Shown: positions 8,631-62,571, counted from the stretch's first letter. The stretch: DNA of 64,000 nt from Petroclostridium xylanilyticum (GCF_002252565.1 NZ_NPML01000002.1:186001-250000); one strand, 5' to 3'. The notes: a model not told the origin generated them from the sequence alone. Numbers and translations are program-made.

Positions 8631-8771
8631 AATGTGAACCGGTAAACTTATTAGGTTTAGTATAGATACTTGTATATGATATCCGTTGTTATAATAATAG
8701 GGAATGAGTGGTAAAATATATCTGCATGTTAAAAATATACTTTAGATTATATTTTATTCTTAGAAATAAAA

Positions 8772-8927: not shown

Positions 8928-8986
8928 ACTTCTAATAAAGTTATTGGGTAAAGCCGGTTTGAAGGTATACATACTTTATAAGACCA

Positions 8987-9023
8987 GGATTAGGGTTTAG
9001 ATTTAAATCCTAATCCTTTTTAT
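8987..9023 (+). terminator. Rho-independent terminator
   Basis: The stem GGATTAGG/CCTAATCC (8987-8994 with 9009-9016) is followed by TTTTTATTT. It would have served the decayed alcohol dehydrogenase gene. Confidence 0.75.
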
Positions 9024-27232: not shown

Positions 27233-27897
27233 AACTCTACACTCACCCCGATCGTTGCAGCCAATAATGTGGCTATAATAATATTCCAGTTTCCATCTAC
27301 TTCCACGGCTATCAGTAGTGAGAGTCCTCCGGCGCAGATAGAAACCAGCAAGTCTTTTTTGTCTTTCATTTGCATGAGCAACAAGCCGATAAACATTGCA
27401 GATAGTGCAAAATCTATTCCCCAGCGGGCAGGGTCAGGAATTAGATTGCCCAGTGCGCCTCCTAATACTGTGCTGGCAATCCAGCTGGCCTGAGAGGTAA
27501 TATGCAAGCCGGCAAAATATTTTGCCGAACAAGTTTCTGCCCTGGCTTGAGTGATCCCTACTGCATAAGTTTCGTCCGTAATTCCAAAAGAAATCAATGC
27601 CTGGATAGGAGAAGCTATGTGTTTGAGATAGGGGGAGAGTGATGCACTCATTAGCAAATGACGCAGGTTAACCAGGAAAGTAGTCATAATAATAGAGATT
27701 ACCCCTGCCCCCGATGCGATCATAGCTGCGGCAATAAATTGTGCTGAACCTGCATATACAAAAAGGGACATGAAGAATATATCTAAGATTGTCAAGCCCT
27801 GTTGGACAGCTAAAACTCCGAAAGCAAAGCCAATGGGTAAATAACCAAGAGCAATAGGCATGGCTCCTTTTGCACCTTTTATATAATCATTTTTCAT
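27196..27897 (-). CDS. azlC: AzlC-like branched-chain amino acid exporter subunit
   Basis: A 233-residue membrane protein. Family features include GAMPIALGYLPIGFAFGVLA, FVYAGSAQFIAAAMI, VNLRHLLMSASLSPYL and GITDETYAV. Start 27897 is chosen because AGGAGG lies 7 nt upstream on the minus strand; the longer frame to 27945 has no ribosome binding site. Confidence 0.9.
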   Translation of the reverse strand: MKNDYIKGAKGAMPIALGYLPIGFAFGVLAVQQGLTILDIFFMSLFVYAGSAQFIAAAMIASGAGVISIIMTTFLVNLRHLLMSASLSPYLKHIASPIQALISFGITDETYAVGITQARAETCSAKYFAGLHITSQASWIASTVLGGALGNLIPDPARWGIDFALSAMFIGLLLMQMKDKKDLLVSICAGGLSLLIAVEVDGNWNIIIATLLAATIGVSVELWSKKLSLPLSE

Positions 27898-28030
27898 AGA
27901 GTACCTCCTGATGTTTATGATGAACGTTTGCGGTTCGTAATTCATATTAATCGCTACGATATACCTTCACAGGTCATAAATTATAGATGAAAATAGTCTG
28001 TACATTGGATTTACTCCCCACTATTTTTAC

Positions 28031-28059
28031 ATTATAAAATAGAAAAAGGACAGGGTCAA
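28031..28059 (-). promoter_or_regulatory. SigA-type promoter of azlCD
   Basis: On the minus strand TTGACC (28059-28054) and TATAAT (28036-28031) are spaced by 17 nt. This leaves a 5' leader of about 125 nt before azlC. The divergent NfeD-like gene starts 157 nt away on the other side. Confidence 0.7.
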
Positions 28060-28215
28060 TAAAAATTAGTGTTAAGGAATTGAAAGAAACAAAAGAATTG
28101 GAAATATAAATAGTAACAAATGTAAACAAAGTTTAATATTGTTTTTATTGTAATAGATATATTATTGCTGTAAAATAATATGTGTCAGATTTAAAAAGCG
28201 GCAAGGAGAGGGAAG

Positions 28216-28767
28216 ATGATGGGTAACATATTCTTTATTGCCTTTGCAGTTGGGGTTGTTTATACGCTTATCTCCTTTTTATTAGGTCAAATTTTGAGCT
28301 TTGATGGGGGAGATATTGATGTAGATCTCGATTGGGAGGGTATAGGGTTCTTTGATATTCCTATTTCACCTTTAAAACCGGTGATAATTGCCAGCTTTAT
28401 AACTATATTTGGCGGCGTTGGTCTATTAGCGCATCGTTACAATGGAATGACTTTTCTTTTATCATTTTGTCTTGCTTTAACAATGGCTTTAATTGGTGCA
28501 TTTTTAATATACAAGTTAATAGTTATTCCACTATATCGCGCTCAAAATACTAGTGCCCATGATATAAATCATCTTCAGGGTACCGATGCCGTTGTGACTT
28601 CATCAATTTATGGAGATAAATTTGGAAGAATCCGTTACGTTGTTAATGACTGTACATATTCTGCTCCTGCACGGTCTATTAACCAACAGGATATAAGACA
28701 GGGGGAAAAGGTCATCATCATTGACGTTGAAAAAAATGTTTTTTATGTAGAGAAGCTTCATGAATAG
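28216..28767 (+). CDS. NfeD/YuaF-like membrane protein with C-terminal OB fold
   Basis: A 183-residue protein with three membrane segments (about 5-25, 56-78 and 84-106), an acidic loop (DGGDIDVDLDWEG), and a soluble beta-rich C-terminal domain from about 125 (LQGTDAVVTSSI, GEKVIIIDVEKNVFYVEKL) with NfeD OB-fold layout. Such proteins usually pair with flotillin-type scaffolds. No flotillin gene follows here; the next 1.6 kb is repeat DNA, so a partner may have been displaced. Confidence 0.7.
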   Translation: MMGNIFFIAFAVGVVYTLISFLLGQILSFDGGDIDVDLDWEGIGFFDIPISPLKPVIIASFITIFGGVGLLAHRYNGMTFLLSFCLALTMALIGAFLIYKLIVIPLYRAQNTSAHDINHLQGTDAVVTSSIYGDKFGRIRYVVNDCTYSAPARSINQQDIRQGEKVIIIDVEKNVFYVEKLHE

Positions 28768-28851
28768 CTGGTTCGTTTAAAGTTTTACAAAAAATAGTAC
28801 AAAAGGAAATGTGTAGATTTATGACTCCAGAGTCGCAAATCTATGAACGAA

Positions 28852-29115
28852 CAATGGGGACGGTTCTTATTGTGTGGCGAATGTATGGAACAATGGGGAC
28901 GGTTCTTATGAGACACGAACAATGGGGACGCTTGAACAGAGCTAGGGAAATAGAGGTTATGTCTGCTCTGGATATATTTTAGGATAACAGGTATTAATAG
29001 AACTGCTGCTAGCAAATCTTGACAATGAGAACCGTCCCTATTGACCTCTATGACAATGAGAACCGTCCCTATTGACCCTAGTCCCTATTGACCCTACTAT
29101 TGACCTCTATTGACC
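28852..29115. repeat. REP-like element beta, copy 1, with nested ends
   Basis: Three left ends (CAATGGGGACGGTTCTT at 28852 and 28890, and a shortened one at 28920) precede a core beginning GAACAGAGCTAGGGAAATAG. They are mirrored by two full right ends (GACAATGAGAACCGTCCC, 29021 and 29052) and shorter CTATTGACC copies to 29115. The core is shared with copies at 32342, 34708 and 40663. Confidence 0.8.
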
Positions 29116-29283
29116 AAGTAGCTTTTATAAGTAAACACAGGTTAAAAGAATTAAAAGGAAAAATAATCTCTTCTTAAAATGGAGGAGATTATTTTTGTTT
29201 ATATATCATTTTTGACGGATAGGACGGTTAATTAAAACCCCTAAACCGGGCCATTCGCGCCTCAAATGTGGCCAGTTGCGCCG
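29116..29283 (+). pseudogene. Duplicated 3' end of lytTR regulator gene plus downstream sequence
   Basis: These 168 bp match 40490-40657 with few differences. They include the last 20 codons of the LytTR response regulator (SKHRLKELKGKIISS and stop), its terminator hairpin, and the following GGGCCATTC module. The copy has no start and is preceded by a beta element. Confidence 0.85.
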
Positions 29284-29419
29284 TAAAAGTGACCAGTTAG
29301 GAAAATCGGCAGGATTTTGGGAGTGTATCAAGAATATATCAAATATAACAAAAACTTAGAATTAATATCTTACAAGCAACATGGTTATATCAATACACTG
29401 AATGGAAAATCTCGTTATA

Positions 29420-29731
29420 AAACATCTATATCAATAACACTAAATATATTACATGCGTTATGACGGGGAAGCAGCAACATGTATGGAATGTTGCTGCCAG
29501 AAAATCACCATGGAGGGAGATTTTAGGCTTATTCCGGCACGGGTGCCGTTATAAGCCGACGGCAAAACATGGAGTACATGCTGCTGTTTCCACCAATGTA
29601 ATGTATTAAGTGTAATTTATATAGTATACGTTATATTGAAAATTTTTTGAAAGAAAAAAAGCGTGGTGATTCCCTTGGGCTGAAAAAGTGATGCGCTTAT
29701 TGTTGCAAATAAAAAATAGAGTTAAGGAGGT
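29420..29731 (+). repeat. 312-bp leader module, copy 1 (contains element alpha copy B)
   Basis: Bases 29420-29731 are nearly identical to 32509-32820, without length change. The module holds palindromic element alpha (29426-29624) and about 105 bp of leader ending in TTAAGGAGGT, a strong Shine-Dalgarno site. Here it leads into a 16-codon frame (ATG 29741, MIIHIRSPNKIRMFFY and stop). Confidence 0.85.
29426..29624 (+). repeat. Structured palindromic element alpha, copy B
   Basis: A 199-bp element with long imperfect terminal inverted repeats (CTATATCAATAACACTAAAT at the left; its inverse ends at 29624). The internal arm AAGCAGCAACATGTA can pair with TACATGCTGCTGTTT near the right end or with the nearer ATGTTGCTGC. 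The core holds an AAAATC/GATTTT hairpin and a GGCTTAT/ATAAGCC hairpin capped by CGGCAC/GTGCCG. The related region at 35.1 kb lacks the element, so it is a discrete insertion. Confidence 0.8.
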
Positions 29732-29740
29732 ATACAAGTC

Positions 29741-29791
29741 ATGATAATACATATAAGATCGCCGAACAAAATCAGAATGTTTTTTTATTAA
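29741..29791 (+). other. Short frame behind shared Shine-Dalgarno site
   Basis: ATG 29741 follows GGAGGTATACAAGTC and encodes 16 residues (MIIHIRSPNKIRMFFY) before TAA. A second frame at 35770 begins MIIHIRSPDK behind the same GGAGGTATACAAGTC. Either both are the first codons of a truncated gene or they are short peptides; the sequence does not decide. Confidence 0.3.
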
Positions 29792-29811
29792 AAGATTTTA
29801 CAATGTTAAAT

Positions 29812-29975
29812 GGGTAGTGTCAAAAGATTTATAAAAAATGATTAACATAAGAAGATGATAAATGACATAAGAAGACCTAAAGCAGCATAAGTTGCACCAC
29901 ATATAAAAAGATACATCGTCATTGTAAGCCCTCAAGGGCAATACTGTGTTCGGCTTACGCTGACTTTTGACAGCC
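29812..29975. other. Possible insertion-element remnant in gene-free stretch
   Basis: GTGTCAAAAG near 29816 and CTTTTGACAG at 29964-29973 form an inverted pair about 150 bp apart. No transposase frame lies between them. Bases 29976-30390 contain no credible gene either, only stop-rich frames. Low-confidence reading of a decayed element. Confidence 0.3.
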
Positions 29976-30409
29976 TTATTCTTGCGATGGAAAGGATAAC
30001 CAAGCGGTGCAAGAGACGCAAGTAAAACTAAGTAAAACTAGCGTTTTCACACTTGATGATAGATTTGAACCTTGACAAAATGAGCCGGATAGTTGGGATG
30101 AATTTTCACTATAAGGACAAAGACCCCGTGGTGGAGTTTGACTGACATCCACCTCATGGACTGCAGAACGAAGGAATTAAGGGCTATGACCCCGTTAGAT
30201 ATGGGAGGTTTGCTGCCGGAGATTATGTGGATACCAATGGCCGTGATACTGAAAGAAAGACGCAGTGTTATTAGGTCATACAACATCATTCATAATTGTG
30301 CAGCAATGCAATATCTGTCCATATGGCATGTTTTGAAAATGTTGAAATTCTATGATTGAGTGAAAAAATGAAAGAAAACGAAGAAATATTAGGGAGGTAT
30401 ATAATTATC

Positions 30410-31090
30410 ATGAAAAAAATTATATGCTCATTGACTGTTTTGGCATTGACTTTTAATGTTTTTGCAGTGTCTGCAAGTGCAAAATCAAAAAAACCGTTGG
30501 GGAATGTAACTGAAGAGAAATTGGACATTCCACATGAAGTAACTACAACTATGCAATATGACTTGGAAGAAGCGCAAAAAATTGCAGAACAAGAAAAAAG
30601 CAGTCATATTGACAACTCAGATAACACCTCAACGACTCTAGGTGATGTTACGACACAAGATTTGGATTTGAGGTGGCATACACATCGTATTGAAAACGTA
30701 AGGATATATCAGATTAATGATTATTATCCAGTTACAGACTGGTACGTTGGTTCTGCTACAATTGCATATCAGCAAGGACAATCTTTCACAATTTCGGGCT
30801 CTGTTAACACAACTTGCGGAGTTAGTGCAAGTACAGCAGTTGCTCAAGTCAAAGCGGATACAGGTGTTACTATAGGGGCTTCTACAACGGTAACTTGTAG
30901 TACTACATATACAAGAACAATTTCTTCAGGTTATAAAGGGAGAATAATTTACAGATATACCTATGATTATGCAACCTTCACCTGTGTAAAAGACTATGAT
31001 AATCCTAATTATCGTGATGAATATGGTGAGGGAGATGGCAAATCTGCAGCATATGATGGGTACTTTACTTTGCAACAAGTTTCACTTTAA
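30410..31090 (+). CDS. Secreted protein of unknown function
   Basis: A 226-residue protein with a clear signal peptide (MKKIICSLTVLALTFNVFAV, cleavage near SASA-K), a low-complexity linker (about 30-75), and a Thr/Ser/Tyr-rich beta-strand domain. The last part has alternating strands (TTVTCSTTYTRTISSGYKGR) and ends near GKSAAYDGYFTLQQVSL. I recognise no family. ATG 30410 has GGGAGG upstream; the longer frame to 30356 would bury the signal peptide. A strong terminator follows. It is the first coding gene of the exoprotein island. Confidence 0.75.
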   Translation: MKKIICSLTVLALTFNVFAVSASAKSKKPLGNVTEEKLDIPHEVTTTMQYDLEEAQKIAEQEKSSHIDNSDNTSTTLGDVTTQDLDLRWHTHRIENVRIYQINDYYPVTDWYVGSATIAYQQGQSFTISGSVNTTCGVSASTAVAQVKADTGVTIGASTTVTCSTTYTRTISSGYKGRIIYRYTYDYATFTCVKDYDNPNYRDEYGEGDGKSAAYDGYFTLQQVSL

Positions 31091-31099
31091 AGTATATAA

Positions 31100-31156
31100 A
31101 AATATTATAGAACAATCATTTTTTGATTGTTCTATAATATTTCTATAATATTTTTA
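31100..31156 (+). terminator. Rho-independent terminator
   Basis: A perfect 19-bp stem (31100-31118 with 31124-31142, TTTTT loop) lies just after the stop of the secreted protein gene, with a T-rich tail. Confidence 0.75.
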
Positions 31157-31168
31157 TATATCTATATC

Positions 31169-31394
31169 CAGTATTGTTGAAAATAAAAGTTTTGCAAAAG
31201 TCAATAGTAATAGTTTACAGGTATAACCTGGACATATAAGAAAACTATGGGTAGTGTTAGAGAAAAGGGAAGTGATCACCTAAGTCTAACAATATAAAAT
31301 AGTAAACTTCTTGGTTCTACGGTCTGCATCGGTTTCGTCAACGGATTTTTCCAGAACATTCATTGGTAAAAAGCCTTTTAAAGTTTCAAAAACT
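31169..31394 (-). mobile_element. Internally deleted remnant of the IS4-family element
   Basis: The remnant starts with the same terminal sequence as the intact IS (CAGTATTGTTG, 31169). It keeps the terminal region to about 31305, then jumps to DNA matching the 5' end of the transposase gene (31305-31394 with 37929-38027, opposite strand to the window). About 1.1 kb, and the other inverted repeat, are missing. It cannot encode a transposase. Confidence 0.8.
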
Positions 31395-31437
31395 ATGCAT
31401 AGGTTATATAAATTAGCGTAATAAGAGGAGGCCTGTA

Positions 31438-32319
31438 ATGAAACAAATAAGTATTTGTGTTATTTTTATATCTATCATAATAATATTAACTTCATGTAAT
31501 AGTAAAGTAGCAAATTATAATCAATCATTGTCGTATATGGAACTTATTGAATTTGATAAATATAATTCATTAATAACACTAAATGATGATATAGATCCAA
31601 ATTCATATGAATCTATCTTGTTTTATGGTAAAATTAACTCATCACAGGCGATTGAAGAAATAGAAGAAGATATTAAACAAGAACTGAAGTCAATATCATT
31701 AATACAAAATGAAGAAATTATTATGGAGTCAGATAATTTTATTTGGAACATAAACGATAGTGATAATATAAAAAATTTTGAATTACAAGTAAATATACTT
31801 CCAAATAAAATAGATACTAATGTTTATATTGATAAATTACAGTTAAATTTAAATACAGATAAGAAAATAACAAAAGAGATTGGAATGTATTACATAAATA
31901 CACATAACATGGCCAATAATAAAATATTATCTGTTGTTGAGTCGCCTATTGAACCACATAAACTACCTGTTATTGGAAAGGAATCAACAGTTAGTTATAG
32001 AATTATGACGCTAACAGAAAACTTTAACAATAACTTTAAAGTTACAGTAGATGTACCGGAATTTTTTACTAAATTTTTTTCAATAACAAGTGTTAAATGG
32101 AATTACGATGATAAGCTAACTGAAGATATAAAAAAAGAGTATAAGAAATCTATTACAGAAGCTGAAATTAAAAACGTAAAGATATATGAAGTTATAGTAA
32201 CATATAAGGTAAACGAAAAAAGCAATATTCTTTTTAAACCTTTAATTTTCTCAGATATTACTAATTCAAATGAATTTTGTACTCCCTCTGTTCCATTAAA
32301 GTTTCATTATACTGATTAA
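31438..32319 (+). CDS. Lipoprotein of unknown function
   Basis: A 293-residue protein with a lipoprotein signal (MKQISICVIFISIIIILTSC, lipobox LTSC at Cys20). The mature part is Asn/Lys/Ile-rich, without cysteines or catalytic motifs I can recognise. It looks beta-rich in its second half. GAGGAGG upstream of ATG 31438 supports the start. Codon use is noticeably more AT-rich than in the core genes, consistent with acquired DNA. A beta element begins 22 bp after the stop. Confidence 0.75.
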   Translation: MKQISICVIFISIIIILTSCNSKVANYNQSLSYMELIEFDKYNSLITLNDDIDPNSYESILFYGKINSSQAIEEIEEDIKQELKSISLIQNEEIIMESDNFIWNINDSDNIKNFELQVNILPNKIDTNVYIDKLQLNLNTDKKITKEIGMYYINTHNMANNKILSVVESPIEPHKLPVIGKESTVSYRIMTLTENFNNNFKVTVDVPEFFTKFFSITSVKWNYDDKLTEDIKKEYKKSITEAEIKNVKIYEVIVTYKVNEKSNILFKPLIFSDITNSNEFCTPSVPLKFHYTD

Positions 32320-32341
32320 GACGATTTAGAGCAAGACGGAG

Positions 32342-32503
32342 CAATGGGGACGGTTCTTCTTGTACGGAGCAATGGGGACGGTTCTTCTTGAACAGAGCTG
32401 GGGAAATAGAGGTTATGTCTGCTCTGGATATATTTTAGGATAACAGGTATTAATGGAACTGCTGTTAGCAAATCTTGACAATGAGAACCGTCCTTATTGA
32501 CTT
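32342..32503. repeat. REP-like element beta, copy 2
   Basis: Two left ends (CAATGGGGACGGTTCTTCTT at 32342 and 32370), the shared core, and one right end (GACAATGAGAACCGTCC, 32477-32493). It lies between the lipoprotein gene and the second leader module. Confidence 0.8.
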
Positions 32504-32508
32504 CCCTA

Positions 32509-32820
32509 AAGCATCTATATCAATAACACTAAATATATTACATGCGTTATGACGGGGAAGCAGCAACATATATGGAATGTTGCTGTCAGAAAATCACCAT
32601 GGAGGGAGATTTTAGGCTTATTCCGGCACGGGTGCCGTTATAAGCCGACGGCAAAACATGGAGTACATGCTGCTGTTTCCACCAATGTAATGTATTAAGT
32701 GTAATTTATATAGTATACGTTATATTGAAAATTTTTTGAAAGAAAAAAAGCGTGGTGATTCCCTTGGGCTGAAAAAGTGATGTGCTTATTGTTGCAAATA
32801 AAAAATAGAGTTAAGGAGGT
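32509..32820 (+). repeat. 312-bp leader module, copy 2 (contains element alpha copy C)
   Basis: A near-identical copy of 29420-29731, again ending in TTAAGGAGGT. Element alpha occupies 32515-32713. Here the module serves as the 5' leader and ribosome binding site of the C39-like peptidase gene at 32828. Confidence 0.85.
32515..32713 (+). repeat. Structured palindromic element alpha, copy C
   Basis: 199 bp, differing from copy B by only a few bases (for example GTTGCTGT for GTTGCTGC, which turns a G-C pair into G-U). The same folding potential is kept. Confidence 0.8.
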
Positions 32821-32827
32821 TACTACT

Positions 32828-33415
32828 ATGAAAAAATTACTGTCTGTAATTTTAATTTTATCAATTCTATTGAGTTCCAGTTCTCAAATATTTGCTAAAA
32901 ACGGAGGTTATGAGAAAGCAGAACCATTCTTTAGTGAAAGTGAAGCTGCCGATATAGCACTGCTGTTCGTTTTGAAAAACATGGACAATAGTGGGACCTG
33001 GAACAAGAATACAATGATAAACAAAGTATACACTCTCTATGACGTAGATGATGCTATAACAGGTTATACATTTTGCTTGAATACTGATGGCAATGAAAGC
33101 GGTTATATATGTGTTTCAGCCAATGAAGACGAAATGCCGATTCAAGAGTTTTCATTCAGCGGAACACCTATATTTGAAGAAAGCCTAGAAGAAGGCATTC
33201 TTTCTGATGTTGAGGTGAATGATTTTTCAGGTTCCAATAACAAAAATAATCGTAAAGGCAGAATTGTATATAATGGTCCATTAGAATATTTCCTGAATTC
33301 TGATGGGAAATATTACGACATGGATAGAAAAAAAATTCCCGATAAAAAAGATATTAAAAAACACAAAATGTCGCAAAATGGTAGTTCCAATAGTATAAGA
33401 GAAATCATGAAATAA
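32828..33415 (+). CDS. Secreted C39-like peptidase, N-terminal part (frameshifted)
   Basis: 195 residues with a signal peptide (MKKLLSVILILSILLSSSSQ) and a propeptide-like region (FFSESEAADIALLFVLKNMD, SGYICVSANEDEMPIQEFSF) resembling N-terminal segments of secreted papain-like proteases. The frame ends at TAA 33413-33415. In the next frame the catalytic half follows without a gap. One extra base at ATGAAATAAAAAAA would join the two. ATG 32828 is supported by GGAGGT in the shared leader. Confidence 0.7.
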   Translation: MKKLLSVILILSILLSSSSQIFAKNGGYEKAEPFFSESEAADIALLFVLKNMDNSGTWNKNTMINKVYTLYDVDDAITGYTFCLNTDGNESGYICVSANEDEMPIQEFSFSGTPIFEESLEEGILSDVEVNDFSGSNNKNNRKGRIVYNGPLEYFLNSDGKYYDMDRKKIPDKKDIKKHKMSQNGSSNSIREIMK

Positions 33416-33420
33416 AAAAA

Positions 33421-34059
33421 TTAATCCAGGATAGTTACAAATCTTATATAGGAGCAACCTATGACGGTCAAATCAGCGGCTATGTTATTGATGATAGATT
33501 TGACTATATGATAGACAGGTATGAGGATTACAGATATGAGGACGGAAATAGTCTCTCTGGTTTTCCGGGCTTGGATATGGATGACTTCGGTGATGATAAT
33601 GACTGTACCCTGGTATCAATAACAGCTATGTCATATTATTGCCATAATAACGGTTATGACGATATTCCAAGTTCTACCACCAAAATTTATAATGATGTTT
33701 TGGATGTTGCAGAGGACCATGGATACACACCTGAAGGTGGAACAAATCCTACTGTAATTGACAATATAATTGAAGATGTATTTGACGAATGGGGATACGA
33801 TATTAACGCAAGCAACGTGTATATTTGGTCGTTTAGTACCTTCACAAATGAAATTGATCGTAATAGACCGGTGATTTTTAACATAGCAACCGGCTATTAT
33901 AGTAATCACTCAGTTTCTATTTTTGGGTATAAGGAATATGACGTTGCCGATTTTTTAATGGTAAAAGATAATTGGTCTACATCTACAAGATATATACACT
34001 ATCAGGAAATGTACGATGATTTCGGAAGTGTAACCAAAACCAATATAGACATAGATTAG
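33421..34059 (+). pseudogene. Secreted C39-like peptidase, catalytic part (out of frame)
   Basis: The open frame begins directly after the stop of the upstream part (IQDSYKSYIGATYDGQISGY) and continues through GFPGLDMDDFGDDNDCTLVS, where Cys is the likely nucleophile. RPVIFNIATGYYSNHSVSIF places the catalytic His, and FLMVKDNWSTSTRYIHY the third catalytic position. This matches the C39-like peptidase layout. The first internal ATG is 33508, without a ribosome binding site. As sequenced the enzyme would not be made in one piece. Confidence 0.7.
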
Positions 34060-34294
34060 AATTCAACAAATATGCCGAAAATGCATATAGTGATATTAAT
34101 AAACTAGTTTATGGAAATTTTTGATTTTATTGATTTTCTCGTTAATTGCTTAACTTTATCGGACATAGTTTCATTGCCTTTTGGGATCTGGCTTTGGAAC
34201 GATATCTTAATTTAAACACAGGGCAATGAACTTGTCCATTTCACTTGTTTGAATTTGTAAAGTCTAAAATACGTCACTAAAGGGGGATAATATA

Positions 34295-34729
34295 TTGAAA
34301 AAAAAGTTGTTTGCTGCAATTTTGCTAGTACTAGTTTTGTTAGTGCTTTCAGCTATCGGAATATTTGTTTTACGGGCATTTGATTCCAGCTTCAGGTATA
34401 GTTTTGATGTCAATTTTAATAACGCAAAAGAACATAAATCATATTCTGAAGATTTAAGGAATTTTACAACATTACCCTTGCCTCCATCTACTGCATTTGC
34501 TTTCAGACATTCAGATACAGCGGTAACGTATTATACTAAACTAAACTATGACGAATTTATTAAATATTACAAAGATAATGGTTATACAGTAAATGAAAAT
34601 GTAATCACACATAATAATGTAAACTTTATAATCATATACAAAAATTATGAAGGAAGCTATAAATACAATTTCATTGAAATTGATTTATTTACAAGAAGAC
34701 TGCAGAACAATGGGAACGGTTCTTGTTGA
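34295..34729 (+). CDS. Small membrane-anchored protein with element-derived C terminus
   Basis: A 144-residue protein with an N-terminal membrane helix (LFAAILLVLVLLVLSAIGIF) and an extracellular domain with YYTKLNYDEFIKYYKDNGYT. Its start is TTG 34295, 8 nt after GGGGG. No family recognised. The last seven codons (about NNGNGSC) lie inside REP-like element beta, so the natural C terminus was replaced or extended when the element inserted. Confidence 0.6.
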   Translation: MKKKLFAAILLVLVLLVLSAIGIFVLRAFDSSFRYSFDVNFNNAKEHKSYSEDLRNFTTLPLPPSTAFAFRHSDTAVTYYTKLNYDEFIKYYKDNGYTVNENVITHNNVNFIIIYKNYEGSYKYNFIEIDLFTRRLQNNGNGSC

Positions 34730-34918
34730 TAAATTACTTGAACAGAGCTGGGGAAATAGAGGTTATGTCTGTTCTGGATATATTTTAGGATAACAGGTAT
34801 TAATAGAACTGCTGTTAGCAAATCTTGACAATGAGAACCGTCCCTGTTGGCTCCCAGCAAATCTTGACAATGAGAACCGTCCCTGTTGGCTCCCTGGCTC
34901 CACGTCCCTATTGGCTCC
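34708..34918. repeat. REP-like element beta, copy 3
   Basis: Left end CAATGGGAACGGTTCTTG (34708), the shared core, a first right end (GACAATGAGAACCGTCCC, 34827-34844), a second full right end (34866-34883) and a shortened third (CGTCCCTATTGGCTCC). Confidence 0.8.
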
Positions 34919-35190
34919 TGACAGTTAATTTAAATTCTAAGCTGGGCCATTCGCACCTCAAATGTGGCCAGTTGCGCCGTAAAAGTGACCAGTTAGGAAA
35001 ATTAGAAGGATTTTGGGAATGTATCAAGAATATATAAAATATAACAAAAATTTAGAATTAACATCTTACAAGCAATATGGTTATATCAATATACTGATTT
35101 TTGAATGGAAAATCTCGTTATAAAGCATTTATTATGCATTATATTGAAAACTTTTTGAAAGGAAAAAAGCGGGGTGATTCTTGATTATTC
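34919..35190. repeat. Repeat of the GGGCCATTC module without element alpha
   Basis: This segment matches 29226-29427 and then 29632-29680, but lacks the 199-bp alpha element in between. It therefore shows the unoccupied site (AATCTCGTTATAAAGCAT directly followed by TTATTATGCATTATATTG). Confidence 0.75.
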
Positions 35191-35750
35191 GAACCTTGAA
35201 AAGGGCATAGCAAAGCTAACCATCACCCAAAGGGAGGACAAAAGCCAGTCCCAGATTAACTTTACAGTATAATCATGCTACGGTATCTCAAAAATGTAAA
35301 GAGTTTTTTACAGACAAATTTGGTGCTACTAGATGACCGGAAGGGAAACAGCAGCTTGGCCTAATGGCAGTAGCAATAGAAAAAAGAAGTGATGGTTGGG
35401 GTTGGCTTGTGGATTTATGGAAAAGATGTCTTTCGATAAGAAGTTCCACCGGTTCAGGTTGATGGATAAAACTGTGGAAAACAAAAGGTGTGTTTACCAC
35501 AATTTTATCCACAACCTTCACCGGGAACTTCTAATCTCAAGCCACTTTCTCACAAGCTCCACAAGCCCGGTTGCTGCTACAAAACAATTTAATTATTTAT
35601 TTATGTTATGTAGACAAAGTATATTATTGGCATTTAGTATGCCATAAATCAGTAATGTGAAGTGTTAATTACCAGTTAAATACTGGTAAAATAAATAAAC
35701 CTAAATAAACCTGGACACGAACTAACTTGTTGTGTACAGGTACTATTATA
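35191..35750. other. Gene-free stretch with large hairpin
   Basis: No credible gene. Bases 35440-35482 and 35492-35531 form a roughly 40-bp imperfect inverted repeat (GAAGTTCC at the left, GGAACTTC at the right). One arm contains a perfect DnaA-box sequence, TTATCCACA (35505-35513). A short frame before it ends KLTITQREDKSQSQINFTV and looks like a gene remnant of unknown kind. Confidence 0.45.
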
Positions 35751-35963
35751 CGAGGAGGTATACAAGTCATGATAATACATATAAGGTCACCGGACAAAAA
35801 AGGTTTTTACGCCTTAGTATCTTGATCTTTGTGAAGACTTAGTTAAATATAATATAGAATCGCTTTTCTTATATTTTTCAAATATATTATTAGTGTTGAA
35901 CAGAGAATCAATGGGAAAAGTTCAGGCTCTTTTGTTCTAAAATAACAAATGGGAGGGATAAAG

Positions 35964-36764
35964 ATGTTAACAACGGATAAACTTTGTAAAACACTGAAAA
36001 GATCATTTATCTTTATATGTACGATAGTAGTTACGATTTCCATAATAGCAGTATCCAATGTTTTTGGAGCATATGGACAAATAGATATGCGCTCTCCAGT
36101 TTCTTCTCCTGTTAATGCTGGCTATTTATATGGAGAAAAATTAACTTCAAGTAGTACTTACGGACATATGGGACTAGATTTTGCATCAAGTATCGGTACA
36201 AGTGTTTATGCAACATATGCGGGTAAAGTTATTAAGAAAAAAGATTTAGGTAATTCTTCATACGGAAAATATATTGTTATAGAATCTATACATCCTGTTT
36301 ATACGAGCACAAAATTTTATCATTATTATTGCCATTTGAGTGAGTTTTCAACGAGTATAAGTGAAGGTCAAACAATATCAGCTGGCACATATTTAGGAAA
36401 GACTGGGCAATCTGGCAATGTTACCGGTCCTCATTTGCATTATGAAATTAGAATGGGTGCAGATGATTGGTATGCACAGAGAAACCCGGAGGGATTGCTT
36501 GCAAGAAGTTCATCGGATGGTTATGGTGCAATAAGAGGTAAGTTGTACACAGCAAATGGTAACTGGGCAAGATACAAGAGAATATCCGGTGCAACAAAAG
36601 GAACCGATATAAATTATGGTGCTTCTTATTCGTATTATGTCATGGCTAATGGCAATCCTTTTCCTGATGAGACTGCGTATGGTATTAATTATTATATTGC
36701 AAGAATCAGTATTGTTGCAAATAAAAGTTTAGCAAAAATCAATAGTAATAATTTACAGGTATAA
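35964..36764 (+). CDS. Secreted M23 peptidase (LytM-type), 3' end interrupted by IS
   Basis: A peptidase with an N-terminal hydrophobic signal (about 15-36) and an M23 domain. Zn ligands are H68 and D72 in YGHMGLDF and H159 in GPHLHYEI (H157-L-H159), with H124 (YYCHL) close by. M23 enzymes cut peptide bridges in peptidoglycan. ATG 35964 follows GGGAGGG. Residues after about 248 are encoded by the IS inverted repeat (the IS begins at 36707), giving an altered tail of 18 residues. Removing the IS and one target copy restores an in-frame 282-residue protein ending at 38287. Confidence 0.85.
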   Translation: MLTTDKLCKTLKRSFIFICTIVVTISIIAVSNVFGAYGQIDMRSPVSSPVNAGYLYGEKLTSSSTYGHMGLDFASSIGTSVYATYAGKVIKKKDLGNSSYGKYIVIESIHPVYTSTKFYHYYCHLSEFSTSISEGQTISAGTYLGKTGQSGNVTGPHLHYEIRMGADDWYAQRNPEGLLARSSSDGYGAIRGKLYTANGNWARYKRISGATKGTDINYGASYSYYVMANGNPFPDETAYGINYYIARISIVANKSLAKINSNNLQV

Positions 36765-38172
36765 CCTGCACCCATAAGAAAATTATGGTTAACGTTAGAG
36801 AAAAGGGGAGTGACCACCTAAGCCTAACAATATTAAATTTAAAAACTTAATATGACGAAACCTTACCAAACATACACTGGATGTAGAAATCAACGTACTC
36901 TCTCTTCCAATTAAACCGCTTTCGTTTGCGACCTGGAGGTTTTACAGTGGATAGAGACTTTTTAAGGTAGGCAATGGTATTCCACAGTCCGCCTGCAATG
37001 AGTCTTACCATCTCCAAGAAGTTATGATTGGTACCCACCAGAATATGCATGAGTTTTAACAAGCAAAACAGAATCAATGCCGTGTAAATCTGGTTTAAGA
37101 CTGCATTAAAACTGGTACCATAAAACTTCTTGATTTTAAGATGCTGCTTTATCCACTTAAAGAATAGCTCTATCTGCCATCTTAGACGGTAGATTTCAGC
37201 TATTTCCTCACCTGTAAGGTCAAAGCGGTTTGTGGCTATATAAAAGGGCTCACCTGTAGAAGAGTCGATTACTTCCACAACTCTCAAGGAGTGCTGCATC
37301 TTTGTATAAAAGCCACCGAGAATTACTTCTTTATCAGATAGTACAGGGCCTCCCTGGGATATTGAGTTTATACTAACTAACTCCATTACAGCATTCTTTT
37401 TAAGCCTTGTGATAAAGAATATATCCTCCTTGCAGTACCTGTCAAACTCTTTGTAGTCTAAATAGCCGCGGTCAAATATATATGTGATGTTGGGTTTGGT
37501 AATAAGGGAATCCATCTTCTCTTTGTCATGTATAATACCCTCTGTCACTATAATCTGATCCGGGTAACCTAAAAGAACATCGTACAGGGTATGCACCTTG
37601 ACTGCAGCTTTAGTTTCCCGATAGTCAGCCCAGGGAAAGAGAGAGATACAAAGCCTTATTATAGTAGCGTCCAGTATCTTTAGCGTGCCCCAGCTACCAG
37701 GTATGATACGTATACCGTGATGCTTTTTAAGTTTAGCAAGAACAGCTTCAAATATCCTTCTAAAAACATCCGGATCACGGTCGCTGTTTTTGCGGGATAG
37801 CTGTGAAAAACTTATTGTGCCAGTATATTTCTGGAGTTTCTGGTCAGCCATAATACCTGTAACAATATCCCTAAGGCTGTCTTTCTGGACCAAGTGTGCA
37901 TACATCATAGTATTCAGTTGCCGAAGAACAGTAAATTTCTTGGTTCCGTGGTCTGCATCGGTTTCGTCAACGGCTTTTTCCAGTAAGTTCATTGGTAAAA
38001 AGCCTTTTAAAGTTTCAAAAACTGTAGTACAATCATTCATGTTTGTTAACTCCTTCGTTAATAGAATGTGGTTGGTTGGGTACTACCACTAATATTAACA
38101 AGGAGTTTTCATTTTACCAACAGGTATTTATTACCGTTGATTTTTGCTAAAAAATTTTATGCAACAATACTG
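36707..38172 (-). mobile_element. Complete IS4-family insertion sequence (1466 bp)
   Basis: The ends are inverted repeats of about 50 bp, starting CAGTATTGTTGCA at 36707 and ending with the inverse TGCAACAATACTG at 38172. They are flanked by an exact 9-bp target duplication TGCAAGAAT (36698-36706 and 38173-38181). One transposase gene fills the minus strand. The insertion splits the M23 peptidase gene and separates it from the gene at 38304. Confidence 0.93.
36847..38040 (-). CDS. IS4-family transposase (DUF4372 subgroup)
   Basis: A 397-residue DDE transposase. The N terminus has the DUF4372-type region (LKGFLPMNLLEKAVDE). The catalytic triad is D124 (LKILDATII), D190 (TYIFDRGYLD) and E291. 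E291 lies in YRLRWQIELFFKWIK, an exact match to the IS4 signature Y-(2)-R-(3)-E-(6)-K. No frameshift is seen, so it may be active. Confidence 0.94.
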   Translation of the reverse strand: MNDCTTVFETLKGFLPMNLLEKAVDETDADHGTKKFTVLRQLNTMMYAHLVQKDSLRDIVTGIMADQKLQKYTGTISFSQLSRKNSDRDPDVFRRIFEAVLAKLKKHHGIRIIPGSWGTLKILDATIIRLCISLFPWADYRETKAAVKVHTLYDVLLGYPDQIIVTEGIIHDKEKMDSLITKPNITYIFDRGYLDYKEFDRYCKEDIFFITRLKKNAVMELVSINSISQGGPVLSDKEVILGGFYTKMQHSLRVVEVIDSSTGEPFYIATNRFDLTGEEIAEIYRLRWQIELFFKWIKQHLKIKKFYGTSFNAVLNQIYTALILFCLLKLMHILVGTNHNFLEMVRLIAGGLWNTIAYLKKSLSTVKPPGRKRKRFNWKREYVDFYIQCMFGKVSSY

Positions 38173-38181
38173 TGCAAGAAT

Positions 38182-38287
38182 AAGAACAGGAAATATTACT
38201 TTAAGCTATGATAACGATAAGCGTACTCAAAATATTACGGTATATTCTAATACAGATTCTGCGGCAACTGACGTATACTTACCATAA
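38182..38287 (+). pseudogene. Separated 3' end of the M23 peptidase gene
   Basis: Immediately after the right target duplication the interrupted frame resumes (RTGNITLSYDNDKRTQNITV to DVYLP and TAA 38285-38287), encoding the natural last 34 residues. It has no start of its own. Confidence 0.85.
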
Positions 38288-38303
38288 TCGAGGAGGGGAA
38301 TTC

Positions 38304-39359
38304 ATGAAAAAAGGCATTTGGATTATCGCAGCACTTATTTGCGTTTTGGGGGTAACAGTAATATCCTTTGCAAGCATAAATTCCGGATTATTTGTCAGAG
38401 ATAAGATATTGGAAGAACATGCTGAAGATATAAAAAAGACAAAAGTTGACGTAAAGGAACAAATATCCATCAAAGATGAAAAAACACCTGCAGATATTAA
38501 TATTATCCAATCAAAAAAAATAGCTGATGATGGAAGTATGATATTTGAGGTTGTGAATAACGGCAAAGTAATGGGTTCATTTTATTACAAACCCTGGTTG
38601 GAAAACAGGCCTGTCTTTACAAAACTGGAAAATGGCGATTTCATTTTAGGCAAAACCATGTATTATTCAACGAAAGAACAAGTATTAAAACCGTTAGCAG
38701 GAGAAGTTAATCTAAGCATATTTGATTATGACGTTCTAGGAAATAAAGTGGCTCTTATAGGCAAGCAAGACAAGAATAATGAAGCAATCATGAAAGTATT
38801 CATATACAACATAGAAACTAAGGAATATGCTGAAGTTGATTCATTCAAATATCCAAATTATATGCATCAGGAAACAGTTTTACTCTGCTGGAAAAGTAAT
38901 GAAGAACTGTTTTATGACTATTGCGAAGGGACAAAACCGCTGATAAAGAGTTATAACACCCATAATGGGGATAAAAAAGTTTTTATGGACAGTGCAATGA
39001 ACCCGCAAATTTCTCCTCAGGGCAACTACATGGTTCTTTTAAAAATATCCTCTTTAAACAAAAGTGATCGGACAATTGATGAGTTGCAGCTTGTTGATGT
39101 ATCTAAAAAAGAGAAAATAACCAAAGTAAATGGCTCAAAAAAGATATTTTGGCACGATGATTTGCTTTTTGTAAAGAACATGGACGAGGCAGTTATTGAG
39201 GTTTTGGATTGTAAAGCCGGCGGGAAAAAGATAAAAAGCATTCCGATGGCGGATATGCCTGTTGAAATAAAGGTTAGCAATAACAATGTTAAAATTAAAT
39301 CTTATAAATTTAATGAAGGAATGATCACTTTAAATGAGGTGGATGAAGCACTTAAATAA
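38304..39359 (+). CDS. Exported protein of unknown function, beta-propeller-like
   Basis: A 351-residue protein with an N-terminal membrane/signal helix (GIWIIAALICVLGVTVISFA), a charged linker, and repeated beta blade-like segments (FDYDVLGNKVALIGK, KVFIYNIETKEYAEVDSF, MNPQISPQGNYMVLLKI, ELQLVDVSKKEKI). This is suggestive of a TolB/WD-type propeller, not proven. ATG 38304 follows GAGGAGGGG. It lies 17 nt after the original end of the M23 peptidase gene, so the two formed an operon before the IS arrived. Confidence 0.7.
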   Translation: MKKGIWIIAALICVLGVTVISFASINSGLFVRDKILEEHAEDIKKTKVDVKEQISIKDEKTPADINIIQSKKIADDGSMIFEVVNNGKVMGSFYYKPWLENRPVFTKLENGDFILGKTMYYSTKEQVLKPLAGEVNLSIFDYDVLGNKVALIGKQDKNNEAIMKVFIYNIETKEYAEVDSFKYPNYMHQETVLLCWKSNEELFYDYCEGTKPLIKSYNTHNGDKKVFMDSAMNPQISPQGNYMVLLKISSLNKSDRTIDELQLVDVSKKEKITKVNGSKKIFWHDDLLFVKNMDEAVIEVLDCKAGGKKIKSIPMADMPVEIKVSNNNVKIKSYKFNEGMITLNEVDEALK

Positions 39360-39416
39360 TATATTTTACCGGGCTATATTTAAAGATAACGGAAAATTCA
39401 GGTCTCAATATATTAC

Positions 39417-39443
39417 GGGCAGGTTATCCTGCTCTTTTTTTTG
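39417..39443 (+). terminator. Rho-independent terminator
   Basis: GGGCAGG and CCTGCTC pair around a short loop, followed by eight T residues. Confidence 0.8.
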
Positions 39444-39549
39444 TGTGCATTTATACTACCACATAGGTTAAAGCATTGTAAGACCCTATCTTTCAGAGGC
39501 TTGCACCTAAAGTCCTGCTGCAATCTGAATATTTTATAGTATACATATG

Positions 39550-39770
39550 TCGAAATTTGTTGGTATTTGTAGGAAATTTTGTATTGGTATTCAATGTATT
39601 ATTATGGTAAAATTAGATTATAACTTGAATCGTCTGTATAAATTTTGTTTACAAGTTGGTTGTAAAGGATTTTAAAGTCGTATTATTACTAATTTTGTCG
39701 TATAAGGATGATTTGGTATACTGCAGTAAATACCATGGTATGTTACATTATTACTAAGTTTTGTAGTATA
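39550..39770 (+). promoter_or_regulatory. Repeat-rich upstream region of the LytTR regulator gene
   Basis: ATTATTACTAATTTTGTCGT (39682-39701) recurs as ATTATTACTAAGTTTTGTAG (39747-39766), 65 bp apart. AATTTTGT-like octamers occur several more times between 39550 and 39770. ATGTCGAAA near 39547-39555 matches a Spo0A-box core (TGTCGAA). These are candidate regulator sites, possibly for autoregulation by the LytTR protein. Confidence 0.5.
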
Positions 39771-39825
39771 TGGTACTTCTATGAATCAGATATTCTACAG
39801 AGCTTAAAAATAGGGGGCGTTATGG

Positions 39826-40551
39826 ATGAACAGCATTTTAATTCTAGAAGATGAAGATTACACCAGAAAATTTATTAAACAATTAGTATCAGAAAGTGCA
39901 CCAGCCTTTCAAATTCTTGATACCTCAAAGAGCAGTGAAGCGATTGATTTTGCAAAAGAGTATCTACCGGATATTGCGCTGCTGGATATAGAACTTGATG
40001 CCAGTGAAAAGTTAAATGGACTGGATGTTGCAAAAATCATCCATACCGTTAGTCCTGATACAAAACTTGTGTTCATCACGGGACATTCACAATATGCGAT
40101 GTACTCTTTCGGTGTACATCCGTATGATTATATCCTAAAGCCGATTGATATAAAAAAGTTTATAGAAACCATCAGTGTATTAACAAATGAAGTAAAAAAA
40201 GAAAAAACTGTTCTAAGAAAAGCAAATAAAATTATTATAGAAAACAATAATGAAATTATTTTTATAACACCCGAAGACATACTTTTCATAGAAAAACAGA
40301 AAAAGAGTTTATTGGTCTATACTGCTGAAAATGTGTACTGTGTACAACAGACGCTAAACGGGCTGGAGCAAAGCCTGCCGCAATATTTCATAAGGGTGCA
40401 CAGGTCTTTTATTGTAAACAAAAATAAAATTCATAAAATCAGGAAAACAGGAAACAGAACCTATCAAATTGAGTTTTTAGAAACTGATAAAGTAGCTTTT
40501 ATGAGTAAACACAGGTTAAAAGAATTAAAAGGAAAAATAATCTCTTCTTAA
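39826..40551 (+). CDS. LytTR-family two-component response regulator
   Basis: A 241-residue regulator with a receiver domain (acidic pocket in LEDEDYTRKF, phospho-acceptor Asp near residue 54 in DIALLDIELD, Thr in VFITGH, Lys in ILKPID) and a C-terminal LytTR DNA-binding domain (FITPEDILFIEKQKKSLLVY, YFIRVHRSFIVNKNKI). Such regulators (AgrA, VirR, ComE relatives) control exoprotein or peptide genes. It sits at the edge of an exoprotein island, so it may control it. No histidine kinase or signal-peptide gene is adjacent. Its 3' end is duplicated at 29116. Confidence 0.9.
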   Translation: MNSILILEDEDYTRKFIKQLVSESAPAFQILDTSKSSEAIDFAKEYLPDIALLDIELDASEKLNGLDVAKIIHTVSPDTKLVFITGHSQYAMYSFGVHPYDYILKPIDIKKFIETISVLTNEVKKEKTVLRKANKIIIENNNEIIFITPEDILFIEKQKKSLLVYTAENVYCVQQTLNGLEQSLPQYFIRVHRSFIVNKNKIHKIRKTGNRTYQIEFLETDKVAFMSKHRLKELKGKIISS

Positions 40552-40572
40552 AATGGAGGAGATTATTTTTAT
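40533..40572 (+). terminator. Rho-independent terminator overlapping the end of the lytTR gene
   Basis: AAAAATAATCTC (40533-40544) pairs with GAGATTATTTTT (40559-40570). The stop codon lies in the loop side. The same hairpin is present in the duplicated copy near 29159-29198. Confidence 0.75.
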
Positions 40573-40662
40573 TTATATTATCATTTTTGACGGATAAGAC
40601 GGTTAATTAAAACCCTAAACCGGGCCATTCACACCTCAAATGTGACCAGTTGCGTCGAAAAA

Positions 40663-40804
40663 CAATGGGGACGGTTCTTGTTGATAAATTACTTGAACAG
40701 AGCTAGGGAAATAGAGATTATGTCTGTTCTGGATATATTTTAGGATAACAGGTATTAATAGAACTGCTGTTAGCAAATCTTGACAATGAGAACCGTCCCC
40801 ATTG
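40663..40804. repeat. REP-like element beta, copy 4 (cleanest)
   Basis: 142 bp bounded by CAATGGGGACGGTTCT and AGAACCGTCCCCATTG, with the core shared by the copies at 28.9, 32.3 and 34.7 kb. Inside, GAACAGA pairs with TCTGTTC. Bases 40805-40968 are AT-rich and show no feature. Confidence 0.85.
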
Positions 40805-40980
40805 TTTTCCATTGTTTTTCCTAAAAAAATTTATATAAGTTATTGTTAACTTATGAAAATTTAGCAATTTGGGTAAGATATTTTATAGGACACCCAAAAT
40901 GCACTAAAATTTGCCATTCATTATATGTAAAAAAGCAGGATTTAATACTTGTAAATACTAACTAAGGAATGGGGAGTAAT

Positions 40981-43900
40981 ATGACCGATATTCTGAATGC
41001 GATGTTTATTGTTTTAGCAGCTTTTGTCATATTCGTATTGATATACAGGCATTTCAGCCACAGTAATAAGGAAGCAGGAGAGATACAGGATGCTTTACTG
41101 GGTCCTGAAGAATTAGAAAGGCATGCTGTTGAGATAGCCAGAAATCATATCGTTGCCGATGATACGAGGTCGATTTCCTGGCTGGTTCCAAGGATGAATG
41201 ATAACTATAAATTGATTGCTGCAGTATACAACAAACTAAATGAATATGCTAAAAATAAGAAGCCAACGGCTTCCGCAGCTGAATGGCTGCTTGATAATTT
41301 TTATATTATAGAACAGCAGGTTAAAGAAATCCGGCAAAGCCTATCTAAAAAGTACTGTTCTCAACTTCCGGTTTTAAAAAGCGGACCATTAAGGGGATAT
41401 CCTAGAGTATATGCAATTGCACTGGAATTGGTTGCGCATACCGATGGAAGGTTTAATGAAAAAAGTTTGGTCAGTTTTATAAAGGCATACCAATCCCAAA
41501 GTTTACTTTCCAGTGGAGAACTGTGGGCGATGGCAATCATGGTCCGTATTGCTTTAATTGAAAACATCAGGCATATTTGCGAAAAGATAATAAATTCACA
41601 ACAGCAATTTTTAAAAGCCGATGAAACTGCTGACCTGTTACTGTCAAGGCTGGAACAACCACCTGAAGTCCTGGTGCAGCTTATGAAAGAAAATATTAAA
41701 GGAATGGAAAAATTAACGCCATCCTATACGGAACACTTGCTGCAAAGACTTAAAAAGCAGCAGCATAAAGCCGCACCGATTTTGCAATACCTGGATGAAA
41801 GACTGGTTGAACAAGATAATACAGCTGAAAAGATTATCCAGCAAGAACACCAGGAGCAAGCTGCAAGACAGATTTCCATAGGGAATTCCATTACAAGTTT
41901 AAGACTGGTTTCTGCTTTGGACTGGTCAGGCATCTTTGAATGTTTAAGCCAGGTGGAACAAATACTTCGTCAGGACCCTGCCGGCATTTATCCCCGGATG
42001 GATTTTGCGTCGAGGGATTATTACAGGCATGAAATTGAGAGAATATCCAGGGCTGCTAAAATCAATGAAACCCAGATTGCAAGAAAAGCTATAGAATGTG
42101 CGCAGGCAGTTTCGAAAGATAATACGGACGATGAAAGACTAGGGCATGTAGGATATTATTTGATAGGAAAAGGGAGGGCAGTTTTAAATGATAAGATTGG
42201 CTACAAGCCAAAAGGAATGCAAAAAATTGTTCAGGCTGCAAAAAATCATCCTACATTTTTGTATTTAAGTTCAATTATCCTTATTACCGCAGTGATAGCC
42301 GGTGTTTTTATTTCCTATGCATATAGGTTTACAGGGAGGAATAATATATGGCTAAGTCTTCTTGCCGGCATAGTGGTGCTTATTCCTGCAAGTGATATAG
42401 CCGTAGCCATTGTGAATTGGGTAAGCACCCGCATATCCCGGCCGGTTATACTGCCCAAGTTGGAGCTGGAAAATGGTATTCCTGAAAATGAGACTTCAAT
42501 GGTAGTTATTCCAACCCTCCTGCCTAATGAAGAGCGCGTAAGGCAACTGGTAAGTCAATTGGAAGTATTTTATCTGGCCAACAGGGAGAAAAATTTATTT
42601 TTTGCTCTTGTAGGAGATTATAAAGATGCACCACAGGAAGAAATGCCGGAAGAAACAAAAATTATTCAGACAGCTATTTTGGGTATCAAGGAATTAAATG
42701 AACGCTATGCTTCAAAAGAGCAGGATATTTTTTACTTTTTTCATAGATACAGGCAGTATAATGCCGTACAGAACAAATGGATGGGATGGGAGCGTAAAAG
42801 GGGCGCACTTATTGAATTAAATGACCTGTTACAGGGATCAAAAGAAACCAGTTTTTCGGTGATTAGCGGAGACTTATCCAAGATTCCTCAAATCAAATAT
42901 GTGATCACCCTGGATGCTGATACCAGTTTACCCAAAGATGCGGCAAAAAAGCTTATCGGAACCATGGCTCACCCGCTCAACAGGCCGGTATTGGATGAAA
43001 AACTGGGGATAGTAGTGGAAGGTTATGGCCTTCTTCAACCCCGTATTAATGTGGATATTGTAAGTGCCAACCGTTCTTTCTTTTCCCGTGTATTTGCGGG
43101 TCAGGGAGGGGTAGACCCGTATACCACGGCGGTTTCTGATGTTTACCAGGACCTTTTTGGAGAGGGTATTTTTACCGGAAAGGGAATCTATGATGTTGAT
43201 ATTTTTCAAAAAGCTTTAAAAAATGCTATACCCGAAAATACCGTACTAAGCCACGATTTATTAGAAGGTTCTTATGTAAGGGCCGGGCTTGTAACCGATA
43301 TAGATTTTATAGACGGATATCCTGCGCGGTATAGTGCATATGCTGCCCGGCTGCACAGATGGGTGAGAGGAGACTGGCAGCTTATACCCTGGCTGGCGTC
43401 CAGAGTGAAAGATAGACAGGGGAAACTGGTAAGGAACTCTCTATCCACAATCGCTAAATGGAAGATATTTGACAATATGCGGAGAAGTTTGACGGCTCCT
43501 GCCCTTACAATCCTAATTGCATTGTCTTTTGGAGTATTACCGGGGAATAGTCTGGTATGGCTGTCTTTTGCAGTGCTCACCCTGTTTTTCTCTCTTGTAA
43601 CTGCAACAGTGGACGCAGTTCTGGCAAAGAACTACAGGTTTTGTGGTGAAAAGCGGCACTGCACCATCATTTATGGGTTTAAGGCTACGCTTTACCAGGT
43701 ACTTCTGTTATTTGTCTTTTTACCGTACCAGGCATACTTGATGGGCGATGCAATTATTAGAACACTCATTAGAGTATTTGTGACCAAAAGAAATACGCTG
43801 GAGTGGGTGACGGCCGCCGATGCGGAAAAGCGTTTAAAAAATGATATAAAAAGCTTCTGGAAGAGAATGTGGGTATCTGGTTTAATAGGGGGCATCATTC

Positions 43901-50873: not shown

Positions 50874-50989
50874 CTCCTGCCTCAATGTTGCTATAGTTTT
50901 GAGGAGATTTATCTCAAAATCAAAAACCAAAAAACCATAGGGACAGTCCGAAACCACTGAAAAAGTCCGGTTCAGCAGAAAGAAGGGCT

Positions 50990-51056
50990 GCGACTTGGGG
51001 ACGGTTCGTCTGTCGAATGCGATTTTCATGCGACTGAGGAACCGTCCCCAAGTCGC
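50990..51056. repeat. REP-like element gamma, copy 2
   Basis: GCGACTTGGGGACGGTTC (50990-51007) and its exact inverse GAACCGTCCCCAAGTCGC (51039-51056) flank a 31-nt centre. It is nearly the same as the copy at 62572. Confidence 0.85.
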
Positions 51057-52065: not shown

Positions 52066-52163
52066 CTGTGGAAACAGCATAAAATCTGTATTTATATTTT
52101 ACTGCATATTGGATGGTATTGCAATGAAAATCTTAAAAGCCTTGTAAAATCAATAAAGGGAAT

Positions 52164-62535: not shown

Positions 62536-62571
62536 AATATATTAAAGATTTTATATAAAAGCATGTAAGAA

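Follow-up and report, generated by a model that had tools for sequence, protein, structure and literature searches.

The 64,000-nt stretch of Petroclostridium xylanilyticum DNA analyzed here (GCF_002252565.1 NZ_NPML01000002.1:186001-250000; the window, to whose positions coordinates refer) carries an island of genes for secreted proteins and peptidases, together with a gene for a LytTR-family response regulator of the AgrA/VirR type, between two directly repeated sequences. A first-pass annotation took these repeats, given as 168 bp, for the ends of an 11.4-kb segment that a single crossover might delete. Self-BLAST of 28000-41500 bears out the direct repeat itself, aligning 29116-29288 with 40490-40662 at 164 of 174 columns (94.3%, E 1e-71), and the two copies do have equal lengths, if only through one 1-bp insertion that is offset by one 1-bp deletion. 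Their content is likewise as first described, namely the last codons and stop of the LytTR gene, an identical terminator and a further module, which we call module B. The right-hand copy begins within the body of the regulator gene (39826-40551), and the left-hand copy opens with a stub of the gene whose left edge (29116) is cut by debris of element A, a sequence resembling a miniature inverted-repeat transposable element (MITE). An assembly duplication or collapse is an unlikely source of the repeat, given the 10 columns at which the copies differ and their position within a contig of 252 kb. On the sequence evidence set out below, we put at about 0.77 the probability that each repeat is a copy of the joint at which an AgrA/VirR-type regulator gene meets its target, and not a mobile-element end.

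Module B opens with three direct repeats of ~10 bp at an exact 21-bp period (GGGCCATTCG / TGGCCAGTTG / TGACCAGTTA). In the segment behind the stub, the triple-repeat score is 21 at a spacing of 21 and at most 16 at every other spacing from 12 to 31, and a score of 21 at spacing 21 is reached by 3 of 2000 shuffles. LytTR regulators bind 9-bp direct repeats, mostly with a 12-bp gap, just upstream of the -35 element (PMC6193735), and the window arrays have just such a geometry of about 9-bp direct repeats set 21-22 bp apart, start to start. Boxes 2 and 3 also match the VirR core CCAGTT-N15-CCAGTT exactly, the published motif being CCAnTT-N15-CCAGTT-N3-Cac (PMC4963840), of which the trailing Cac was not required in our comparison. 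The repeat geometry and the VirR core lead us to predict that the module B arrays are LytTR operators. There are three copies of module B genome-wide, all of them within the island, and the box triples of operators 1 and 2 are identical though the surrounding modules differ by ~12%. The genome holds three CCAGTT-N(14-16)-CCAGTT sites, two of which are operators 1 and 2; the third, on another contig, was not credited, controls giving 1-2 per strand. Copies 1 and 3 of the module are closest to each other (60/66 columns) and copies 2 and 3 least alike (55/65), so copy 2 probably diverged first. The spacing of the copies (5697 and 5678 bp) would fit a 5.7-kb tandem unit, on which we do not rely, as the contents of the two intervals differ and include later insertion sequence (IS) and MITE insertions. 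An Rfam search of 27500-41500 gave no match. The order in which module B is followed by a leader segment, X, and then by a short segment with AGGAGG and ATG is the same ahead of exoprotein 1 and ahead of the M23 peptidase gene, and X is also copied, together with MITE-like element C, ahead of the C39-like gene; this last pair (29418-29731 / 32507-32820; 314 bp, 98.7%) is the strongest local repeat.

The intact regulator gene encodes 241 amino acids and, as is expected at an Agr locus, combines a receiver with a LytTR domain (PF00072 and PF04397); the NCBIfam AgrA model matches it below the model's cut-off. Its orthologues are uncommon, being found in 6 of 391 sampled genomes of the class, the present one included (E < 1e-40), and further ones occur in Anaerosalibacter (locus L001) and Syntrophomonas (L002). 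Those in agr operons share 42-66% identity with it, the value for a genome of the same family, G003, being 66%. The order agrC (GHKL kinase) - agrB - agrD-like peptide gene - lytTR is found in G003, L001, L002, G035, G060 and one of the loci of G135, and the peptide of these relatives contains ...EP.IPESLKK. A three-box array stands behind the orthologous regulator gene at 6 of 7 testable loci, representing 5 of 6 genomes. Past the stop codon, the triples of G060 and of both G135 loci are perfect repeats of TGGGCTATT at a 21-bp period (27/27, 0 of 300 shuffles), and L001 has GGACAGTTA / GACCACTTG / GGCCAGTTA at 21 bp, an unbiased score that 12 of 300 shuffles reach. The arrays of G003 and G035 rest on a weight matrix, because neither stands out by the unbiased score; with both loci held out of its training, the matrix finds arrays just after the regulator, with scores of 25.0 and 18.1, respectively (p ~1e-6 per position, 148 positions). 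An array also lies ahead of agrC in G035 (L132:4721, matrix score 32.2) and in L001 (at 7632, part of the matrix training set). The arrays of the relatives and the three window copies align as one block. A secreted-protein gene follows the regulator and array in G003, L001, both G135 loci and G060, and in one G135 locus the protein is a Peptidase_C39_2, the family of the island's broken C39-like gene. The conserved unit, as read from these alignments, is regulator, terminator, predicted three-box operator and secreted protein. Given the order lytTR - terminator - operator - exoprotein in the relatives, the repeat in the window would be a copied cassette joint. A parallel for such a history comes from G135, in which the whole locus is present twice, 178 kb apart, with a different exoprotein at each place. 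One copy (L137; G135:C11, locus coordinates 7940-10688) is degenerate, with a stop in the regulator gene and agrB not found in it, and despite this degeneration keeps a four-box operator and a secreted-protein gene.

Most likely, and in the simplest history, an ancestral unit (agrC-agrB-agrD-lytTR-terminator-three boxes-leader-exoprotein), still present in relatives, was duplicated locally in this lineage. In the left unit, the operator, leader and exoprotein 1 would have survived, but the agr genes would have gone, and lytTR as well except for a 20-codon stub. The right unit would have kept lytTR and lost its exoprotein and third box, the box to a MITE, and a third operator copy would have come to lie ahead of the M23 peptidase gene. 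Later, the block would have been broken up by both MITEs (A and C) and by an IS4-type element, with deletions adding to the decay. When phosphorylated, the regulator would be expected to bind the 21-bp-spaced boxes cooperatively on one DNA face and to switch on the exoprotein genes, so that one regulator would serve several copied target promoters. Copies of the operator ahead of secreted-protein genes suggest a way for a bacterium to place additional secreted proteins under the control of a single regulator. More tentatively, and with rather less than even odds, target cassettes of terminator and operator, with part of the regulator gene's 3' end attached, may be copied ahead of unrelated genes for secreted proteins. 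Promoter capture would then bring new exoproteins into a quorum-sensing regulon, even where the original signal genes have been lost.

The first-pass annotation had offered duplication or insertion at the lytTR 3' end as the origin of the island; the copied joint revealed by the layout in relatives favors the former and not an insertion element. We consider it very improbable that recombination at the lytTR 3' end brought the island in, or can release it, as a circle of 11.4 kb. It is true that direct repeats (174 columns, 94%) flank 11.4 kb and that G003 lacks the island at the corresponding site, where the flanking genes azlC and ndvB are neighbors on either side of an amidohydrolase gene. 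However, the sequence shared by G003 and the window breaks off near 27908 and is not met again until 40849, and the lineage-specific block of ~12.9 kb so defined (about 27.9-40.85 kb) reaches past both repeats, taking in an NfeD gene as well as the MITE that follows the regulator. Moreover, the anticipated empty site with one repeat copy did not appear, as the G003 site has neither a repeat copy nor the regulator. The arrangement that would have spoken against the first-pass reading, the same gene order in all relatives, was not seen either, since the island is missing from this site in G003, the sole relative with both flanks readable. We saw no integrase, att-like core or circular form of the island, and the only recombinase between the repeats is the IS4-type transposase within its own inverted repeats. 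The repeat is, besides, fully explained as regulator tail plus operator. Nor is the pair the only repeat here, the first-pass annotation having missed four copies of element A, two of element C, an IS and an IS remnant, and a third module B at 34920, inside the island. Some of these are better substrates for recombination: the 168-bp pair has no identical run above 67 bp, whereas such runs reach 196 bp in the C pair and 82 bp in one A pair, so other deletions are likelier than the 11.4-kb one, whose loss via the 168-bp pair is possible but not favored. It was also misleading to suppose that the crossover would leave an intact regulator 3' end, because loss of 29116-40489 takes the gene body (39826-40489) and leaves the 62-bp stub, while the circle from a 29116 x 40490 crossover would bring the regulator together with operator 1 and exoprotein 1. 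Even less credible is the proposal that would make module B the terminus of an IS21-type element and the repeats scars left by an IS. The ends of IS21-family elements carry similar-looking short repeated binding sites, a likeness that may speak for it. Against this, module B occurs only in its three island copies, no IstA or IstB gene lies beside it, sequence that aligns with it stands behind the regulator gene in other genera, where there is no IS, and the copies begin in the regulator gene and not at a fixed element end.

Several observations count against a duplicated regulator-operator-exoprotein cassette, or at least against its working today. The L002 locus has no array after its regulator gene, and G027 is untestable because its contig ends 74 bp past that gene. 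The island's exoprotein genes are mutually unrelated, so that if a tandem duplication occurred, the genes must later have been replaced. Exoprotein genes do follow operators 1 and 2, but the operators sit ~1.1 and 1.0 kb upstream of the start codons, compared with ~330 bp in G003 and ~370 bp in Anaerosalibacter; later insertions partly account for the larger distance, and the promoters may be dead. Promoter-like sites are no commoner in the region than in shuffles. AgrB, AgrD and a GHKL kinase, present in the relatives, are absent beside the regulator here, and no AgrD-like frame was found in 27901-41000. Nine AgrB matches lie elsewhere in the genome, none orthologous to the clade AgrB (the best has ~31% identity over part of the protein, versus 33-40% within the clade). 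With the cognate agrBDC not found in the genome, an absence that is likely but not certain in a 99% complete assembly of 41 contigs, the regulator may be orphaned or inactive; it is probably orphaned, and either fed by another kinase or silent. Binding, exoprotein activation, the order of duplication and the loss of the cognate signal genes are things we infer, the regulatory ones from DNA alone.

Some of the same facts lend weight to the possibility that the region is no more than the debris of a decaying agr locus, rearranged by MITE and IS activity, whose operators and stub regulate nothing now. We consider this unlikely, though it deserves to be taken seriously, and it can hold together with the duplication history, since it denies present function only. 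Besides the missing agrBDC, it would account for the cut operator 3, the broken C39 gene, the interrupted 3' end of the M23 gene, and the elements A and C and IS remnant found throughout. Yet the regulator remains an intact open reading frame, exoprotein 1 is intact, and operators 1 and 2 have retained identical box triples in otherwise diverging modules. Overall, we still regard a duplicated cassette, and not the footprint of an excisable element, as the probable reading of the region.

The features of the region are listed in the table below. Exoprotein 1 has no Pfam, NCBIfam or credible PDB match, and the 351-amino-acid protein encoded upstream of the regulator has none in Pfam, NCBIfam or five same-family genomes; the label "propeller-like" used in the first-pass annotation found no support in Pfam, NCBIfam or PDB searches. 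Single-sequence structure predictions were uninformative for both (predicted local distance difference test scores of 32 and 41, respectively). The leader of the M23 gene contains a 164-bp imperfect palindrome (35404-35567) that is single-copy in the genome. Element A is ~146 bp long with inverted GGGGACGGTTCT ends and has 27 full or partial genome matches; element C (~200 bp) has 39, short ones included. The 3' end of a 144-amino-acid reading frame (34295-34729) runs into element A, and its tail is probably MITE-derived. Another copy of element A sits between two agrB genes in G000 (contig C18:370918-391175; L122, L123), where several agrB genes, some with stops, are clustered with a kinase and a second LytTR regulator. 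A hairpin pair resembling repetitive extragenic palindromic (REP) sequences (50980-51055 / 62567-62642) has GGGGACGGTTC in common with element A. Transposases of the Y1 (IS200-like) type are known to go with REP-type repeats, and a gene for one lies close to the agr locus of G003 (L029:5531-6310). The pairs 31150/36688 and 31298/37927, considered as a second paralogous block, are the IS and its remnant. Farther along the window lies an array (51643-52083) resembling clustered regularly interspaced short palindromic repeats, with seven GTTTTCCTTCCTCATAGGAGCTATAAAAAC copies at 64-66 bp spacing.

Table. Features of the repeat-flanked region, in window coordinates; operators are predicted
Feature	Position	Strand	Remarks
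Regulator stub (last ~20 codons and stop)	29116-29177	+	62 bp; aligned to 40490-40551, one mismatch
Intrinsic terminator, copy 1	29159-29196	+	stem-loop identical to copy 2
Module B, copy 1	29223-29429	+	operator and promoter/leader start
Operator 1	29248-29299	+	GGGCCATTCG / TGGCCAGTTG / TGACCAGTTA, 21-bp period; upstream of exoprotein 1
MITE-like element C	29420-29618		within operator 1 leader; second local copy 32507-32707
Leader segment X, copy 1	29619-29731	+	further copies 32708-32820, 35127-35180
Short conserved leader segment	29725-29771	+	with AGGAGG and ATG; second copy 35753-35799
Exoprotein 1, small secreted protein	30410-31090	+	intact; signal peptide read in sequence
Deleted remnant of the same IS family as 36707-38172	31150-31394		two IS fragments
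Predicted lipoprotein	31438-32319	+	lipobox in sequence; no family above cut-off
Secreted C39-like peptidase gene, broken	32828-34059	+	frames 32828-33415 and 33508-34059; Peptidase_C39_2, E 2.6e-7
Module B, copies 2 and 3	34920-35132; 40598-40662		copy 3 cut by element A
Operator 2	34944-34995	+	box triple identical to operator 1; upstream of M23 gene
Secreted M23 peptidase gene	35964-36764	+	PF01551, E 1.7e-23; 3' end interrupted by IS at 36707
IS4-type insertion sequence	36707-38172	-	45-bp terminal inverted repeats; 9-bp target duplication TGCAAGAAT
Predicted exported protein (351 amino acids)	38304-39359	+	upstream of regulator
LytTR-family response regulator, AgrA/VirR type	39826-40551	+	intact; Pfam PF00072 (Response_reg) and PF04397 (LytTR)
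Intrinsic terminator, copy 2	40533-40570	+	after intact regulator; stem-loop identical to copy 1
Operator 3, broken	40622-40652	+	after intact regulator; keeps boxes 1-2, with MITE A in place of box 3
MITE-like element A	40661-40811		GGGGACGGTTCT...AGAACCGTCCCC; other copies 28887-29080, 32338-32505, 34706-34888

In place of a deletable island, the analysis thus arrives at a proposed and testable regulatory unit, a three-box LytTR operator whose position in several genera is just after the gene of its own regulator and which has been copied ahead of genes for secreted proteins. If this interpretation is correct, it describes one step by which exoprotein regulons grow, and it provides a signature (regulator 3' end, terminator and 21-bp-spaced boxes) with which such regulons and their orphan remains might be found in other Clostridia. 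Related arrangements are known. The LytTR Regulatory Systems of Streptococcus mutans (HdrRM and BrsRM) likewise use 9-bp direct repeats with a 12-bp gap just upstream of target promoters (PMC6193735), whereas here there is no inhibitory membrane partner and the regulator has a receiver domain. With staphylococcal agr, in which AgrA acts at P2/P3, the relatives' locus shares AgrB, an AgrD-like peptide, a GHKL kinase and a LytTR regulator in one place, as well as direct-repeat sites upstream of promoters; it differs in its gene order (agrC-agrB-agrD-agrA), in having three boxes, and in placing the operator after the regulator gene and before a secreted-protein gene. In the VirS/VirR system of Clostridium perfringens, too, a LytTR-type response regulator is paired with CCAnTT-N15-CCAGTT direct repeats upstream of several exoprotein genes (PMC4963840), and an Agr-type peptide feeds the VirS/VirR sensor (PMC7492741). 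There, however, virRS and agrBD are separate operons and the VirR boxes number two, whereas the relatives described here join agrC-agrB-agrD-lytTR in one locus, and the boxes number three, stand directly behind the regulator gene and appear to have been copied together with its 3' end.

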